DNA from: Verrucomicrobiaceae bacterium
GTDB lineage: Bacteria > Verrucomicrobiota > Verrucomicrobiia > Verrucomicrobiales > Verrucomicrobiaceae
Direction of reading: 5' to 3'
Assembly (NCBI GenBank): GCA_019694165.1
Contig: JAIBCL010000002.1
Coordinates: 186,001 to 250,000, forward strand
Length of the DNA stretch: 64,000 nt
Of this stretch, positions 20,324-33,609 are shown piece after piece; the stretch's first letter is position 1, and every line of letters starts with the position of its first letter. Under the pieces are notes generated by a model. That model was given only the letters and a program-made list of their open reading frames with translations. It was not told the origin of the DNA and made no database searches. The position numbers were made by a program, and so were the translations under genes.

Positions 20324-20555
20324 AGGCAGTCCGCTGAGTTGCCTGACGTTTGAGGGTGAACCAGCGGCTTGCACCAACTTCGAAGCGAAACCAATCGCCG
20401 CGCGAATCATCGCAAATTGAGAGGAGGCATTTCGCCGAAAGTGGAATCGCGCACTGTCATCGGTGCGCACACGATGAACCGTCCGATGGCGATGCGCGTG
20501 CGTTTGTCGGGCGTCACTCACGGCTCCCTTGACCCTCAGCCCTCATCATCCACCC

Positions 20556-23318
20556 ATGAACCCGACCCTCATTTGCGCGGAACAACCTCGCGCTCGATCG
20601 CATCGCCACCTCATTGTTCGGCTCCTTGCTTCCACCGTTTGGTTGCAGGCTGCCAACGTCGTCGCCGCTACTTTGACAGTGACAAACACGCTCGACAGTG
20701 GCGCCGGTTCGCTGCGAGGCCAGATCGCTGCGGCTGCATCTGGCGACACCATCACCTTCGATCCGGCGCTCACCTTTGCGGCGCCCGCAGCAATCACGCT
20801 CACAGGCGGAGAAATCTCCACGAACAAGAACCTGACTATCGTCGGCCCTGGCGCGGACAGGCTGACCATCTCGGGCAACTCTGCATCCCGCATTCTCATC
20901 TTCACTAGCGGCACGCAAAACGTGTCGCTCTCGGGATTGACCCTGGCCAATGCGCTCAATACCGGCGGGTTCGGCGGAGGCTTTCTGTCGTTCGGCAGCG
21001 TGAACGTGCGCAATTGCGCCTTCACCGGCAATCAGGCGGCAGTCGGAGCGGCGGCGTATGTGCAGTCGGGCGATGCTTCGTTTGTGAACTGCCTTTTCAC
21101 CGGCAACACAGCCACCGCGCAAGGCGGCGCGGTCAGCTTTCAAACCACCGCCAGCACTCACAAGCTGGACATGATGAACTGCACGCTGACTGGAAATGCC
21201 GTGACCGGCTTTGGCTACAGCACGCTGCAGATCGGAGCATTTGCACCGGGCATTTCGCAGGTCTTCGTGCGCTGCTGCACGTTCGCGAACAACACGACGA
21301 CAAACCCCTCGCTCGGCGAGGCGATCGTGTGCGGATCAGACGGCGCAGCGTCGTCATCCGTCGTGACGCTGTTCGGCAACATCTTCAAACATGCGAGCAG
21401 CGTGACGCTCGCGATCCACAGCCAGAACGGCGGACCGCCGGGCACCTACATTTCCGAGGGCTACAACTTTGCCAGCGACAACGGCGGCGCGTTTCTCACA
21501 GGCGTGGGCGATGTGCTTAATGCCGATCCGCTCCTCGGGCCGCTCGCTCCCAATGGTGGCCCCACGCAAACGCGCGCGCTGCTCTCCGGCAGTCCGGCGA
21601 TCGGCATTGTACCTCCGGCTTTGCGTCCCGCCGATGCCTTCGACGTCGATGGCGATTCCAACACGGCGGAATTGCTCCCCGTGGACCAGCGCGGCATCAC
21701 TTTCGCGCGCGTGTCCGGCGGACTGATGGACGTGGGTGCGTTTCAAACACAGAAACCTTCGCCCGTCGCATCGCCCGCGCTGGGTGACATCATTACTGGC
21801 AACGACGCGACGGATGCGGCTGGCATCACGAGCATCGGCAAATACGACTTGCTGAAGCGCGGCGGATACTTCGCGCAAAACGGACAGCTCATTTTTCCGG
21901 GCTATCTGCTCATCGGCACCAACGGCGTGACGCTCTCGCCAAACAACTTCATGGGTCTGTGGAAGCTTGACGGTTCTGGCATGAAACTGTTTGCGCGTAG
22001 CGGCGACACCGCGCCGGAAACTTCGAGCACCGTCTTCGACGTGCTGCCGCAAACACCCGCGATCAATCGCCATGGGGAGGTGACGTTCCTCGCTTCCCTT
22101 CGCGTCGGCTCGGGCGCGCCCGCGGCAACGACGGATGACGACACCGGCCTCTGGAGCGAAATCGGCGGCACAGGCATCGGCATCCTCATGCGCGAGAGCG
22201 ACACGATCCCGAGCATCGCTCCATTGCAGATCGGTGCATTTGGCTCAGGCGCATTCGCCACGGCAAAGACGAGCGCGACCACGGGAGAGGCGGCTTTTTC
22301 GATCACGATGAAAAACGGCAGCACCGACACGGCCATCCTGCGCGCCAGCGTCACAGGACCGACGGTCACCGCCGTTGGCGTGGTCGCGCGTGAAAACACC
22401 ACCGCGCCGGGCACGGCGGAGTTGTTTGGCAATCTCGCCGGCTCCTACTCCGATCCGCAGCGCATGGACGCCGCAGGCAATCTGCTCTTTGCCGCGCTGA
22501 TGAAATCGGGACGCGAGAGCCTCTGGTATCAGCCCATCGGCGGCGCGGTCACGAAGATCTTCCTCGCCGGCGCATCCGGCGTGGGTGACGTGGCGCCAGG
22601 CACTGGCGGCGCCACCTTCAAGAGTCTCAAATCACCCGCCATCGGCAGCGGTGGCACGATCACCTTCCGCGGCTTTTTGAACAACGACGGTGACAATGCC
22701 GCCGGATTGCAAAACGACGGCATCTGGCGCGGCATCGCGGGCGTTGGCTTCAATTGCATCCTGCGTCGTGGCGACAGCGCTCTGCCCGGCATGCCCGGCG
22801 GATCGAAGGTCGGCAACGTGTGGCACAGTTGGCTCACTGCGGCGAATCACGGCGCGTGGCGCGGCTGGCTCGACTTGAACGGCGATGGATCGAGCGCTGC
22901 CCCTGCGGACGTACAGGCCATTTACACCGATCTCTCAGGCACGATGTCGATGATCGTGAAAGTGACCGACTCGGCGCCGGGCATCGCCGGCGCGACATTC
23001 AGTGCATTCGATCTGCCGGTGGTGGGCGGCGCGGAGCAGATGGCATTCCTTGGAGCGGTGACCGGCGGCGGCACCACCCCCGCGAACAACAAGGGCCTGT
23101 GGCGATCCGCCGCCAACGGAGGTCCGCTCGCACTGATGCTGCGCACCGGTGACTCGATGGTGACTTCACAAGGCCCGAAAACCGTGACCAACATCGACCT
23201 CCCCGGCTCAAACACGACCAACCGCAGGTGGGAGCAAAACGTGATGGACACCAATGGCCGGCTCATCGTCTTCGTCACTTTCAACGACAACTCAACGAGC
23301 GAAGTGATCGTGCCGTGA
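20556..23318 (+). CDS. Large secreted right-handed beta-helix protein
   Basis: The protein has 920 residues from ATG 20556; a TTG start at 20529 is possible but less likely. A basic leader (SHRHLIVRLLASTVWLQAAN) is followed by TLTVTNTLDSGAGSLRGQI, the CSLREA-like opening of polymorphic or beta-helix surface proteins. Residues about 60-390 carry repeated parallel-helix rungs (NCAFTGN, NCLFTGN, NCTLTGN) and end with PNGGPTQTRALLSGSPAIG, a common closing phrase of such domains. Residues about 400-920 form a second beta region with repeats (LLIGTNGV, ILMRESDTIP, LMLRTGDSM) like choice-of-anchor-type proteins. No anchor was recognised. Confidence 0.8.
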   Translation: MNPTLICAEQPRARSHRHLIVRLLASTVWLQAANVVAATLTVTNTLDSGAGSLRGQIAAAASGDTITFDPALTFAAPAAITLTGGEISTNKNLTIVGPGADRLTISGNSASRILIFTSGTQNVSLSGLTLANALNTGGFGGGFLSFGSVNVRNCAFTGNQAAVGAAAYVQSGDASFVNCLFTGNTATAQGGAVSFQTTASTHKLDMMNCTLTGNAVTGFGYSTLQIGAFAPGISQVFVRCCTFANNTTTNPSLGEAIVCGSDGAASSSVVTLFGNIFKHASSVTLAIHSQNGGPPGTYISEGYNFASDNGGAFLTGVGDVLNADPLLGPLAPNGGPTQTRALLSGSPAIGIVPPALRPADAFDVDGDSNTAELLPVDQRGITFARVSGGLMDVGAFQTQKPSPVASPALGDIITGNDATDAAGITSIGKYDLLKRGGYFAQNGQLIFPGYLLIGTNGVTLSPNNFMGLWKLDGSGMKLFARSGDTAPETSSTVFDVLPQTPAINRHGEVTFLASLRVGSGAPAATTDDDTGLWSEIGGTGIGILMRESDTIPSIAPLQIGAFGSGAFATAKTSATTGEAAFSITMKNGSTDTAILRASVTGPTVTAVGVVARENTTAPGTAELFGNLAGSYSDPQRMDAAGNLLFAALMKSGRESLWYQPIGGAVTKIFLAGASGVGDVAPGTGGATFKSLKSPAIGSGGTITFRGFLNNDGDNAAGLQNDGIWRGIAGVGFNCILRRGDSALPGMPGGSKVGNVWHSWLTAANHGAWRGWLDLNGDGSSAAPADVQAIYTDLSGTMSMIVKVTDSAPGIAGATFSAFDLPVVGGAEQMAFLGAVTGGGTTPANNKGLWRSAANGGPLALMLRTGDSMVTSQGPKTVTNIDLPGSNTTNRRWEQNVMDTNGRLIVFVTFNDNSTSEVIVP

Positions 23319-25582: not shown

Positions 25583-28411
25583 ATGCCATTCACCATACGC
25601 AGTCTCTTCCAGCAAGGTCCAAACGAGGACAAGTCGTCCGGTACCGCTGCGGTGCTGGAACCTCCTCTGCCGCCTCCAGCTTCGTCCAGTCAATTTGGTG
25701 GAGGAGGGTTGCCCGTTCCAATGAGCAGTCCGTTTGGCATGGAAGTCCCCCCAGCCAGTCCGTTTGGTGGTTCGCTATTCCAAGCCCGCGATGGTGAAGC
25801 GGCTGGGGGCGCACCGGTGCATGTGCGGCCCGCGGGTGGATCGCCATTTACCCCCGGTGGCGGTGGCCAGACCTGTCTGACCGTCGCCGACGTGTTGCCG
25901 CAGTTGCCGCCCGAACTCGCTCGCGCCAATTCCCTTCCGCCGGACCATCAGATTTGCCTGGCGCCGCATCTGATTGAGGCCGCGTTGAGCAACGGCCATG
26001 CGGCCGTGCCAATTTTTGAAATCTACCGGGTATGCCCAGCTATTTTCCAGACGCCAGTTTCCCCCCAAGACCCGCGACATGTGCCGCTGCCAGCCGCAAA
26101 GCTGCCGTCCCTCATCGCTGCCACACAAGCTGGCAGCGGCCATTCAGCGCCTGCTTTCAAACCAGCGGGACCTCCGTCGATGCCAGACACCCAGCAGAGT
26201 CCGTTTGGCGCTGCGTTGGCAGGGGACATCATGGGAGCCGCTCCGATGCAGATTGAAATGCAGGGCCGGGCACCGTCGGTCCTGCCACCACGTCGGGAGA
26301 ATAGCGCTCCTCCGCCGCTAATGCCGGGCCCTTCGTTTCCCTTGGCTACCGCGCAGGACGCGGTGCCATCCCCATTCAGTGCCACCGCTCCGTTCGGCAC
26401 GCCGGCATCGTCCCCACCTGTGCCGATGCAGACTCAAGCCGGCCCTTCGCCCTTTGTTTTTTCGTCGCCTCAACCGCCTGCACCAATTCCTCAGACGCCG
26501 CCTACGCTGCCACCCGCATTCGCAGTGCCGGATCAACTCCCGACCGCGAATCAGGCCTTCGGCCCCGCGTTGGTTTCGCCGTTTGAAGGAGCCGGTTCAG
26601 TCGCATCACAGTCTCCACAAGTGCCTGCGTTCTCCGTGCCAGCACGTCGGGACGAACCGCCCACGCCCGCAGCCGGCCCCTCACCGTTTGGCAACTCACC
26701 GATCTCATCTCCAGCACCGCAGCCTTTTGCTCTCACCGAGCCAGAACCGCCTGCGCCGCCACCCCCCGCTTTCCCTGCACCTGCACAATTTGGCCTTCAG
26801 CCCGCCGCTCCGTCTCCTGCGCCGTCGATGATGATGCCTCCGAAGCATGCACAGCCCGCGCAGCCGTCTCCGCCTCCCGCGCAGCGCGCCGACACGACTG
26901 GCGGTCCGCTGAAACTCTCCCTGGCCACCTTGCTAAAAGGCTACACCAGCACCGACCTGGGATTCGATCCGGGCATGGTGCCATCGTGGATCATGACCGC
27001 CATTCCGGGGTCAGTCATCAGCAATCAGATGGCCGCCGGAAATGCGCAGGTCGAACTGGGCTTGCTCATCGATGGCACCACCGACATTGGTTTCCGCAAT
27101 GTCCTGTCAGGCGCACGGAGGGAACTCAAGATCAATCTTCCCGCCAATGAAGTATTCCATGGATTACCATCCACGTCGTGCCCTGCGCCTGCATCCACTG
27201 AAATTCCAGCACCATTCGCAGCACAGCCTCCTCCGCCGGCACCTTTCGTGATCCAGCCTCCGGTGTCTGCGGTGCCCCAGCCACAACCCACCAACCCCTT
27301 TGCCGCCGCAAAAGCAGCGGCAGCGGCCGCTGGTAGAACATCTCCCTTGCAGCCCATGCCCGGTGTGACTCCGAGCTCGGGGCCCATCCAACCGAAACCA
27401 AACGCCAACTTCGGATTCGCCACTCCTGCCCCCACCCCCGCTCCGCTGCCCGACCCGTCCGTTGGGTCGGTGATGAACGTAAAGCCGGTCGGCTCGTTTG
27501 ATCCCTTTGGTTCGACTTCCGTGCAAAGCTGGGCCGGCAAACCGGCACCCGCCGTGTTCCCGCAGGCGCAGGCTCCCGAGGGATTCAGTAGCGAGCAGCT
27601 TTTCGGTGCTCCCACCCAGATTCCCGCCGCACAGCCGCTCCCGATGCCATCTCTCCGCGAAGTGGCAGCACCTTCGCCCGTTGCTGGTGCCGCGCCCGAC
27701 ACGTTCACCCCTCTGCCGGGAATTCCGCCACCTCCCCCAGCTCCCTCCGCCCAGCCGTTTCTCACCGGATCGGCCCTGCAGTCGTCCCTCACGCCATCGC
27801 CACTGCCGCCCCCGATCGCAAATCCGTTCACGGGGCCGCTCAAACAGACTGCGCCACAGCCTCCGACTTCATTCGCTCCTCCTGTCCCGTCCGTTCAAGC
27901 AATACCTCACGCACTTGCACCCGCCACTTCGCTCGCCGCGCCATCCCTTCCAGACTCGGCCAGTTCAGTGCTCGCCATCACCCCCGTATCGCAAGGTGAT
28001 GCAGAGCAGGTCATGCTGCGCGCCTTGCTCGGCGTAAATGAAAACCTCACTGTGACTCGCGTCGTCGATCTCGTCTCGTCGATTCCCGGCATCGCAGCCT
28101 GTTCCTGCGTGAACGGCACGAGCAGCGTGTCCCGGGGCGGCTCCTCCCAGACTGCGCAGGATTTCCAGCGTCAGGCTCCCGACCTCGCGCGCAACATCCA
28201 TGCCCTGGCACCTCTGATCGGCATCTCCGGGGCGGAGACCTTCTCCATCAACACTGCGGACCGTCTCATCACCTTCTCCTTCCATCCCCCCATCGCTCTC
28301 GGCGTCCTCCACGAGGAAGGCGAGCCCGCCGCCGGCCTGCGCGACAAGATCACGCTCATCAGCCGCGAACTCGCGCGCATGGTGGCGAAAACCGGCGGAC
28401 ACATCGCCTGA
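25583..28411 (+). CDS. Giant proline-rich scaffold protein with C-terminal roadblock/LC7-like domain
   Basis: This 942-residue protein has no leader or membrane segment. Most is low-complexity Pro/Ala/Ser with many SPFG and PFG motifs. Two folded islands stand out: residues about 97-175 (LTVADVLPQLPPELARAN, CLAPHLIEAALSNGHAAVPI) and about 434-520 (LKLSLATLLKGYTSTD, VISNQMAAGNAQVELGLLI). They share the layout of a strand, a helix, a Gly turn, VxLxxL and a closing LP. Residues about 795-942 resemble a roadblock domain (VVDLVSSIPGIAACSCVNG; ending RDKITLISRELARMV). The MglA GTPase gene follows after 6 bp and another roadblock gene after that. A scaffold that recruits the GTPase is inferred; no close characterised relative is known to me. 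Confidence 0.75.
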   Translation: MPFTIRSLFQQGPNEDKSSGTAAVLEPPLPPPASSSQFGGGGLPVPMSSPFGMEVPPASPFGGSLFQARDGEAAGGAPVHVRPAGGSPFTPGGGGQTCLTVADVLPQLPPELARANSLPPDHQICLAPHLIEAALSNGHAAVPIFEIYRVCPAIFQTPVSPQDPRHVPLPAAKLPSLIAATQAGSGHSAPAFKPAGPPSMPDTQQSPFGAALAGDIMGAAPMQIEMQGRAPSVLPPRRENSAPPPLMPGPSFPLATAQDAVPSPFSATAPFGTPASSPPVPMQTQAGPSPFVFSSPQPPAPIPQTPPTLPPAFAVPDQLPTANQAFGPALVSPFEGAGSVASQSPQVPAFSVPARRDEPPTPAAGPSPFGNSPISSPAPQPFALTEPEPPAPPPPAFPAPAQFGLQPAAPSPAPSMMMPPKHAQPAQPSPPPAQRADTTGGPLKLSLATLLKGYTSTDLGFDPGMVPSWIMTAIPGSVISNQMAAGNAQVELGLLIDGTTDIGFRNVLSGARRELKINLPANEVFHGLPSTSCPAPASTEIPAPFAAQPPPPAPFVIQPPVSAVPQPQPTNPFAAAKAAAAAAGRTSPLQPMPGVTPSSGPIQPKPNANFGFATPAPTPAPLPDPSVGSVMNVKPVGSFDPFGSTSVQSWAGKPAPAVFPQAQAPEGFSSEQLFGAPTQIPAAQPLPMPSLREVAAPSPVAGAAPDTFTPLPGIPPPPPAPSAQPFLTGSALQSSLTPSPLPPPIANPFTGPLKQTAPQPPTSFAPPVPSVQAIPHALAPATSLAAPSLPDSASSVLAITPVSQGDAEQVMLRALLGVNENLTVTRVVDLVSSIPGIAACSCVNGTSSVSRGGSSQTAQDFQRQAPDLARNIHALAPLIGISGAETFSINTADRLITFSFHPPIALGVLHEEGEPAAGLRDKITLISRELARMVAKTGGHIA

Positions 28412-28417
28412 TCGGTC

Positions 28418-29050
28418 ATGCCCACCGTTCGTCACGATGAGCGAAGCGTGAGCTTCAAGATTGTCTATTGCGGAACTCCGCTTTCCGGGAAGACCACCAA
28501 CATCTCCCAGCTCCACGCCAGGCTCGACCCTGGCAGCCGCAGCGATCTTGTCTCCCTGTCCACCGTTGCCGACCGCACCCTGTTCTTTGATTTTCTCTCC
28601 GTCCAGACCGCCGCCATACCCGGCTATGGCACCACCTTTCACCTCTACACCGTTCCCGGCCAGATCACCTACAATGCCACGCTCCAGCTCGTCCTGCGCG
28701 AGGCAGACGGTGTCGTCTTCGTTGCAGATTCCCAGATGGACCGCCAACGCGCCAACATCCAGGCATTCCAAAACCTCGAAGCCAATCTCCGCCTTAACGG
28801 ATCGTCGCTCGACCACCTGCCCGTCGTACTCCAATACAACAAGCGCGATGTGCCCAATGCCGCCCCGGTCGAGTACCTGGAATTCCTCCTCAACAATCGC
28901 GCCCGACGCTTCATCAGCTTCGAGGCCGAGGCAAAAAAGGGTCGCAACGTCATCGCCACGCTCAATGCGATCTCACAGTCCATTCTCGTGAACTTTCGCA
29001 ATCAACTCATGTCCACCCAGCCCGTCGGTCCCGCGCTCGCCGTCGCCTGA
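28418..29050 (+). CDS. mglA: MglA-type small Ras-like GTPase
   Basis: This 210-residue cytoplasmic GTPase has the MglA hallmarks. The P-loop is GTPLSGKT (19-26). The usual DxxG switch II motif is replaced by TVPGQITYNA (near 78), as in MglA. VVFVADSQMDRQ follows, and the base-specificity motif is QYNKRDVPN (near 143). In Myxococcus and Thermus, MglA is controlled by the roadblock protein MglB and sets cell polarity or motility. It lies 6 bp after the scaffold gene, with a roadblock gene 123 bp downstream. Confidence 0.9.
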   Translation: MPTVRHDERSVSFKIVYCGTPLSGKTTNISQLHARLDPGSRSDLVSLSTVADRTLFFDFLSVQTAAIPGYGTTFHLYTVPGQITYNATLQLVLREADGVVFVADSQMDRQRANIQAFQNLEANLRLNGSSLDHLPVVLQYNKRDVPNAAPVEYLEFLLNNRARRFISFEAEAKKGRNVIATLNAISQSILVNFRNQLMSTQPVGPALAVA

Positions 29051-29173
29051 GCCGGTCCGCGCCGCTCCGGCAGCCGCCATCGCTTTCGTTTCATCCTGCT
29101 CACCATGTGAACCGTGCATGCCTGGGCCGCAAACGTCATCACCACCTACCTCCAAGACCAGTCACTCAAGGCC

Positions 29174-29689
29174 ATGAACTCGCACGCCCACTCCTGCCTC
29201 CAAACCCTTCTCGATCTGCCCGGCGTCGAGAACGTCCTGCTCATTGACCACACCGGCGACTGCCTCGCGCATCTAGGCCACACCAAGCTCTCACCCGCCC
29301 AGCTCACCGTCTGGAGCGTCCTCGCCCGCGCCTCATTTGGTGCCGGCGACGAACTCGGCCGCCGCGCCGACTCCGGCTCGTGCCAGGAGATCACCAATGT
29401 CCACGAACGCGGCGGCTCTATCCTTCGCCTCGTCCCAGGAGGCCAGTTGCTCGTCGTCCACTTCTCAACCACGCCCGCCCTGGGCACTCTGCGCCTCGCT
29501 GTCCGCCAAGCTGTTGACCAACTCGCCACCGCCTTCGTCCCCGCCGCTCCCGAAGCAGGCCGACACGCCCGCAGCGATGCCATTGATCCCCAGCTCCCCG
29601 CCACCGTCGGCGCCGTTCTCTTTGAAAACTACGAGACCACCGACGAAGACATGGAAGCCATCAGTTGCGCCATGTGCCACGAAGACTAA
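29174..29689 (+). CDS. Roadblock/LC7 (MglB-like) protein
   Basis: The start at 29174 gives a 171-residue protein; a GTG at 29114 in the same frame is an alternative. Residues 8-100 follow the roadblock pattern: LQTLLDLPGVENVLLIDHTG, DCLAHLG, then two helices and LRLVPGGQLLVVHF. The C-terminal 60 residues are probably flexible and end with a CAMCHED tail carrying two cysteines. MglB proteins are GTPase-activating partners of MglA, so it probably acts on the GTPase encoded just upstream. Confidence 0.85.
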   Translation: MNSHAHSCLQTLLDLPGVENVLLIDHTGDCLAHLGHTKLSPAQLTVWSVLARASFGAGDELGRRADSGSCQEITNVHERGGSILRLVPGGQLLVVHFSTTPALGTLRLAVRQAVDQLATAFVPAAPEAGRHARSDAIDPQLPATVGAVLFENYETTDEDMEAISCAMCHED

Positions 29690-32887: not shown

Positions 32888-33127
32888 ATGACATTGACTC
32901 TTCCAGACGATCCCGCCTTGGAACAGATCGCCGAGTGCGACATCCGGCTTGATCTCGCCTGCGGTCTATACGCCGCTGGTAGAGTGTCGCGTGGGATCGC
33001 AGCCAGGCTCGCCGGTCTGGAGCGCATGGACTTTGATGAAGAGTTGTTTCGTCGCCGCATTCCCAGCTACACGGAGGAGATGCTCAAGGAAGACCTGGAG
33101 ACAGTGAACGCCCTGTTCTCGAAGTGA
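32888..33127 (+). CDS. UPF0175 family antitoxin
   Basis: This 79-residue protein matches the UPF0175 pattern: an N-terminal strand (TLTLPDDPALEQIA), a central DIRLDLACGLYAAGRVSRG helix-turn, and a RRRIPSYTEEMLKEDLETV tail. Its stop codon overlaps the GTG start of the PIN-domain gene (GTGA), the usual layout of a toxin-antitoxin pair. It is expected to repress its own promoter and neutralise the PIN toxin. Confidence 0.8.
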   Translation: MTLTLPDDPALEQIAECDIRLDLACGLYAAGRVSRGIAARLAGLERMDFDEELFRRRIPSYTEEMLKEDLETVNALFSK

Positions 33128-33609
33128 TTGTCGTCACCGACACCTCCGTGATTCTCAACCTCTGCCTGCTCGGGCAGGAATCGCTGCTCGCTTCACTGTT
33201 TGGGACCGTTCACGCTCCGCCTTCGGTGCGGTCGGAGTTTCAACGCCTCGCTACCGTCGATCTGCGTTTCATCGGTCTCGCTTTTCCTTCCTTCATTCGA
33301 GTCACGCCGGTGACCCAACCTTTGCCGGTGGTCATGCAGAACCAGCGACTTCATGCTGGCGAGCGCGAAGCTTTGTCATTGGCCGTGGAAATGGGAGCCC
33401 AGGCCATCTTGATGGACGAGCGCGCGGGCAGGTTTGCGGCTGCCAGTCTCGGGCTTCGCTGTGTCGGTATCCTGGGCATTCTCCTTCGAGCGAAGGCGAC
33501 GAACCTGCTTCCTGCGATCAAACCTTTGCTCGATCAATTGCATCATCAGGCACGATTCTGGATCGCTCCGGGACTCCGACAGCAGATCCTGAATGCCGCC
33601 GGAGAGTGA
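33124..33609 (+). CDS. PIN-domain (DUF3368-type) toxin
   Basis: This 161-residue protein starts at GTG 33124, overlapping the antitoxin stop by four bases. It has the PIN acidic residues: VTDTSVILN (first Asp), GEREALSLAVEMGA (Glu) and ILMDERAGR (Asp), followed by RCVGILGILLRAK, which is typical of DUF3368 proteins. It is a predicted RNase toxin paired with the UPF0175 protein upstream. Confidence 0.85.
   Translation: MIVVTDTSVILNLCLLGQESLLASLFGTVHAPPSVRSEFQRLATVDLRFIGLAFPSFIRVTPVTQPLPVVMQNQRLHAGEREALSLAVEMGAQAILMDERAGRFAAASLGLRCVGILGILLRAKATNLLPAIKPLLDQLHHQARFWIAPGLRQQILNAAGE

Follow-up and report, generated by a model that had tools for sequence, protein, structure and literature searches.

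A proline-rich protein with a built-in roadblock domain, encoded beside mglA, as a candidate partner of MglA in Verrucomicrobiota

MglA is the best studied Ras-like polarity switch of bacteria, but outside Myxococcus little is known of its partners. The phylum Verrucomicrobiota includes prosthecate cells, bacterial tubulins and pili. A 64,000-nucleotide stretch (the window) of a 7.8 Mb Verrucomicrobiaceae genome raises the question of whether a long proline-rich protein encoded next to mglA, called the scaffold below, is one of these partners. The three-gene set lies on the + strand and begins with the scaffold gene (25583..28411; 942 aa), whose stop codon is followed after 6 bp by mglA (28418..29050; 210 aa) and then by a roadblock gene (29174..29689; 171 aa from its ATG). 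The frame of the roadblock gene is open from a GTG at 29114; the ATG at 29174 is the more likely start because the closest relative aligns from that methionine. Checking of the ORF coordinates showed that the layout and the 6-bp gap reported in a preliminary description of this DNA are exact. That description also counted a third roadblock domain, a claim rejected here: the operon encodes two, one at the scaffold C-terminus and one in the downstream protein, and the sole other Robl_LC7 match in the genome sits on another contig. Unrelated enzymes are encoded on either side of the trio: upstream a phosphodiesterase, downstream an FAD oxidoreductase and an iron-sulfur protein. The window also encodes a 929-aa protein matching DUF7453 (20529-23318) and a small one matching DUF3368 (33124-33609).

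The mglA product contains the P-loop GTPLSGKT, the segment DRTLFFDF at the Arg-finger position, the catalytic Gln in VPGQ, and NKRD. It matches MglA of T. thermophilus (3t12; E = 1.4e-51) and of M. xanthus (E = 1e-49) over the whole domain, and alignment with these two solved proteins indicates that both the intrinsic Arg finger and the catalytic Gln are kept. An Arg finger together with this Gln is the catalytic pattern of Group 1 (PMC4316618), and the protein is classed here as Group-1-type by that pattern, not by a tree against the published groups. The downstream protein shows weak matches to Robl_LC7/MglB (E = 0.004 in Pfam, below the cut-off; E = 0.005 in the PDB). It appears to be a diverged MglB-like roadblock protein and is presumed to be the GAP of MglA.

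Alignment of the scaffold with 22 relatives identified four conserved parts (aa 1-10, 94-182, 438-532 and 800-936), separated by Pro-rich, poorly conserved linkers. No part of the protein matches any Pfam or NCBIfam family. Proline accounts for 19% of the whole chain, and the 621 aa outside the domains are 25% P, 16% A and 10% S. The scaffold is a real gene, since its orthologues retain the start peptide, both internal islands and the C-terminal domain at the protein level.

The C-terminal part (aa 800-936; 27980..28390, + strand) had been described as roadblock-like, and structure prediction bears this out. The AlphaFold model (pLDDT 91) has the alpha-beta-beta-alpha-beta-beta-beta-alpha order of the roadblock fold, Foldseek matches it to MglB and LAMTOR proteins with probability 1.0, with the MglC structure 7ct3 also among the matches, and VIA-align superposes it on MglB/LAMTOR with Z scores of 12-14 (for MglB 1j3w, Z 13.3 and rmsd 3.3 over 117). 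The fold is recognised only via structure prediction: a profile search of the PDB with the C-terminal alignment recovered no roadblock, and Pfam Robl_LC7 does not match the window copy and matches 3 of 23 relatives (E down to 0.0013). In a tree of 81 roadblock domains, where the shortness of the domain limits support values, all 31 scaffold domains are monophyletic (31/31; support 0.996) and the downstream proteins cluster with MglB of other phyla (0.816). Where other phyla have a second, free-standing roadblock next to mglA, it does not belong to the MglB group. Judged by this tree, the scaffold roadblock is a paralogue distinct from MglB.

The two internal islands (aa 94-182, 25862..26128, and aa 438-532, 26894..27178; both + strand) had been taken for two unknown folded regions. 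The absence of known relatives holds, but the islands are not two different domains: they are copies of one duplicated family of ~90 aa (profile comparison E = 3e-5), here named the I-domain. Copy 1 has no Pfam or NCBIfam match. The AlphaFold model of copy 2 alternates strands and helices (pLDDT 89) and found no match in the PDB or BFVD with Foldseek or VIA-align; these libraries cover solved and viral folds, so a new fold is not proven. The I-domain also occurs in two outgroup loci, L146 and L165 (E = 1.5e-6 and 5e-5), whose labels do not name Verrucomicrobiota, in a protein with hydrophobic N-terminal segments that adjoins mglA and separate roadblock genes. This arrangement points to a possible origin of the Verrucomicrobiota scaffold through gene fusion. 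Weak matches to copy 2 in genomes G321 and G221 were lost under an iterated profile.

The scaffold starts with a conserved aromatic/basic peptide, MPFTIRSLFQ (aa 1-10; 25583..25612, + strand; order consensus M[ASG]FS[IFL]R[SN][LMI]F), which is a possible membrane or pole anchor. Its hydrophobic moment is higher than in other ORFs (p 0.0003), yet shuffling the peptide's own residues gives values just as high (median percentile 0.41); an amphipathic helix is therefore a suggestion and not a demonstrated feature.

The linkers carry four SPFG motifs, at aa 49 and 59 (25727..25768), aa 206 (26198..26209) and aa 367 (26681..26692), all on the + strand, against 0.06 expected from shuffles. The repeats emphasised in the preliminary description are thus real, and SPF is also enriched per linker in the scaffold's own family (9.9 observed, 1.1 expected) and in the reduced relatives found in family f2, which is probably Akkermansiaceae (6.6 observed, 0.3 expected). 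However, SPF occurs at chance frequency outside the order, which rules out SPFG as part of the conserved core beyond it. The giant disordered chain proposed earlier is likewise a feature of this lineage: the protein here is indeed Pro-rich and 942 aa long, but linkers average ~620 aa in its own family and ~350-390 aa outside the order. The core that is conserved consists of the I-domains, the roadblock and the short peptide at the N-terminus, whereas the long disordered part and the SPFG repeats are lineage-specific. Five f2 loci (L106, L107, L109, L110 and L111) encode a short protein that is rich in SPF, lacks I-domains and has a shortened roadblock; in L111 (2716-4259) its neighbour is an MglA-like protein with a seemingly degenerate P-loop (GAADTGK).

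The three genes co-occur in most of those Verrucomicrobiota lineages that encode MglA. A search with the full-length protein detected the scaffold in 82 of 190 genomes from the order, and by an automatic rule it adjoins mglA at 100 of 141 distinct mglA loci, many of those failing the rule being from other phyla or at contig ends. The two genes are on the same strand in 89 of the 100 adjacent loci, with a median gap of 14 bp, and divergent in 11. In a phylum sample of 288 genomes, 26 encode MglA and 20 of these have the scaffold next to it; the six others are G264, G288, G324, G362, G377 and G396, four of them from one family. According to iterated profiles, the trio lies on one strand in Verrucomicrobiales, Chthoniobacterales-type and Limisphaerales/Pedosphaera-type loci, and the scaffold is divergent from mglA in Lentisphaeria/Kiritimatiellia-type loci; these lineage names are approximate, as contig labels of MAGs may be wrong. 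That adjacency was kept while orientation changed argues for a functional linkage of scaffold and mglA. Distances of the scaffold domains and of MglA are also correlated across loci (rho 0.49-0.53), which shared phylogeny explains equally well.

Other genes accompany the trio in parts of its range. In eight loci, which include two from one genome, a gene for a PilB-type ATPase precedes the scaffold at a distance of 3-124 bp. PilT-type genes are present in 276 of the 288 genomes of the phylum sample, which makes the co-occurrence of scaffold and pili uninformative. Genes for ExbB and ExbD follow the trio in ~15 loci, and in 21 Limisphaerales-type loci a divergent gene encodes a regulator with a REC domain and DUF4388, which we take to be the PATAN domain. 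PATAN proteins near mglA have been noted earlier (PMC4316618). The C-termini of the divergent ~360-aa REC-DUF4388 proteins in L140-L181 match a roadblock profile weakly (E = 4e-4 to 7e-3), and these regulators are possibly REC-PATAN-roadblock proteins. In L127, L128, L130, L133 and L138 a gene for a TPR protein precedes those for PilB and the scaffold, and the protein from L128, the one tested, contains an MshEN domain. L105 (1616-4853) encodes a scaffold-type roadblock protein without mglA, followed directly by ExbB, ExbD and TonB-like genes.

A literature search on MglA or small GTPases in Verrucomicrobia, and on MglA with proline-rich or PATAN partners, found no account of the scaffold, in agreement with the earlier view that it is not a described MglA partner; subscription journals were mostly outside this coverage, so the result is not proof. 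The closest parallel is the RomR-MglC-MglB system of Myxococcus xanthus, in which RomR (REC domain, Pro-rich linker and C-terminal helix) binds the roadblock protein MglC, and MglC docks the GAP MglB (PMC12719032). Both systems combine a Pro-rich multidomain protein, a second roadblock and MglB or an MglB-like protein with MglA. The scaffold shares the RomR-like linker (25% Pro outside its domains) and the MglC-like presence of a roadblock paralogue distinct from MglB (own clade, 0.996). In contrast to RomR, whose C-terminal helix binds a separate MglC, it carries its roadblock within the same chain, together with two I-domains, and a Pfam search identified no REC domain in it; the scaffold is not a RomR.

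Other known systems share fewer traits. The Group 1 MglA/MglB pairs of Wuichet and Sogaard-Andersen (2014) have the Arg finger and Gln in MglA and an adjoining mglB-like gene, whereas here the order is mglA then mglB with a conserved third gene; their survey of small GTPases in prokaryotes describes the gene neighbourhoods of mglA as variable in Groups 1 and 5 (PMC4316618). SopA of Myxococcus, likened here by its description, also belongs to the MglA pathway and has two folded regions without known relatives and a disordered linker, but no roadblock has been reported in it and its homologues are reported only in Myxococcales. Ragulator/LAMTOR likewise places the roadblock fold around a Ras-like GTPase at a membrane, but its roadblocks are separate small subunits and its partners are eukaryotic Rag GTPases. 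Conservon (Cvn) and Group 3 systems combine a small GTPase, a roadblock and a further conserved gene in one locus; their partners are a histidine kinase and CvnC, or a receiver/winged-helix protein, and no CvnA-type kinase or CvnC domain was found in the trio or in those neighbours that were tested. HGbRL of Methylacidiphilum is a Verrucomicrobiota protein in which a sensor-type domain is fused to a C-terminal roadblock, but a globin takes the place of the I-domains and its operon is reported to carry a methyltransferase gene, not mglA (PMC4476040).

The scaffold gene, conserved as the third member of the locus and encoding both a second roadblock and a new domain, offers a concrete candidate for an MglA partner in Verrucomicrobiota. 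The scaffold is very probably a dedicated partner of the MglA module, and the trio is probably a core part of the cell-polarity or pilus-control machinery in the phylum. The best overall explanation, to which we assign slightly better than even chances, is that across Verrucomicrobiota the scaffold belongs to the MglA/MglB polarity module as its third component. The N-terminal peptide would attach it to the membrane or pole, and the hydrophobic N-terminal segments of the I-domain proteins in L146 and L165 hint at membrane attachment. Fold and gene order point to an MglC-like role for the scaffold roadblock: built into the chain, it would dock the MglB-like GAP and, through it, MglA, and would thereby set the sites at which MglA-GTP forms or disappears. 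The I-domains, joined by the SPF motifs in this order, may recruit effectors or inputs, the likeliest being PilB for type IV pilus extension; in relatives, ExbB/ExbD proteins or REC-PATAN regulators are candidates. The scaffold would then do the job of RomR and MglC in one chain, with an anchor, effector-facing I-domains, a flexible linker and its own roadblock, as a second architectural solution. This full docking-platform mechanism, with anchor, roadblock dock and effector recruitment, stands at even chances.

Three alternatives, the first two of them serious rivals, place the scaffold elsewhere in the pathway or outside it. It could be mainly a regulator of the nucleotide state of MglA, its roadblock either pairing with the MglB-like protein as a heteromeric GAP or acting as a Ragulator-type GEF, and the linker being only a tether. 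MglB acts in heteromeric complexes, and heteromeric roadblock complexes often serve as GAP or GEF (PMC9481161); moreover, LAMTOR subunits are among the top Foldseek matches of the C-terminal domain besides MglB, and other phyla, too, have a pair of roadblock genes around mglA. This reading, which we consider unlikely, leaves the conserved I-domains, the N-terminal peptide and the SPF motifs unexplained, and MglA already has an intrinsic Arg finger and Gln. Less probable still is a downstream effector that binds MglA-GTP through its roadblock and relays the signal to pili or to ExbB/ExbD, a role comparable to that of SgmX/SopA in Myxococcus. The roadblock is a regulator fold and not a known effector fold; several lineages do have PilB or ExbB/ExbD genes next to the operon, which favours this role, but the linkage is confined to those lineages. 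SopA, with its likewise two-part folded architecture and disordered linker, acts on PilB localisation (PMC11580455).

The poor conservation and widely varying length of the linker could also indicate a low-complexity protein that is merely co-inherited and has no function in the MglA module. This is highly improbable, as three folded domains are conserved next to mglA across many families, through changes of orientation. Beyond the proposed third component of the MglA/MglB module, the I-domain could be a new fold by which MglA polarity systems, in Verrucomicrobiota and elsewhere, specifically read effectors or membranes, with the scaffold uniting GTPase, GAP and pilus machinery in one polar assembly, possibly an SPF-driven condensate in Verrucomicrobiales; this wider proposal is speculative and more doubtful than the docking platform itself. 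The window's genome has a second roadblock region (L218; G000:C32), in which two small roadblock-like ORFs lie by protein kinase-like and hemerythrin/globin-like ORFs, as judged by eye.
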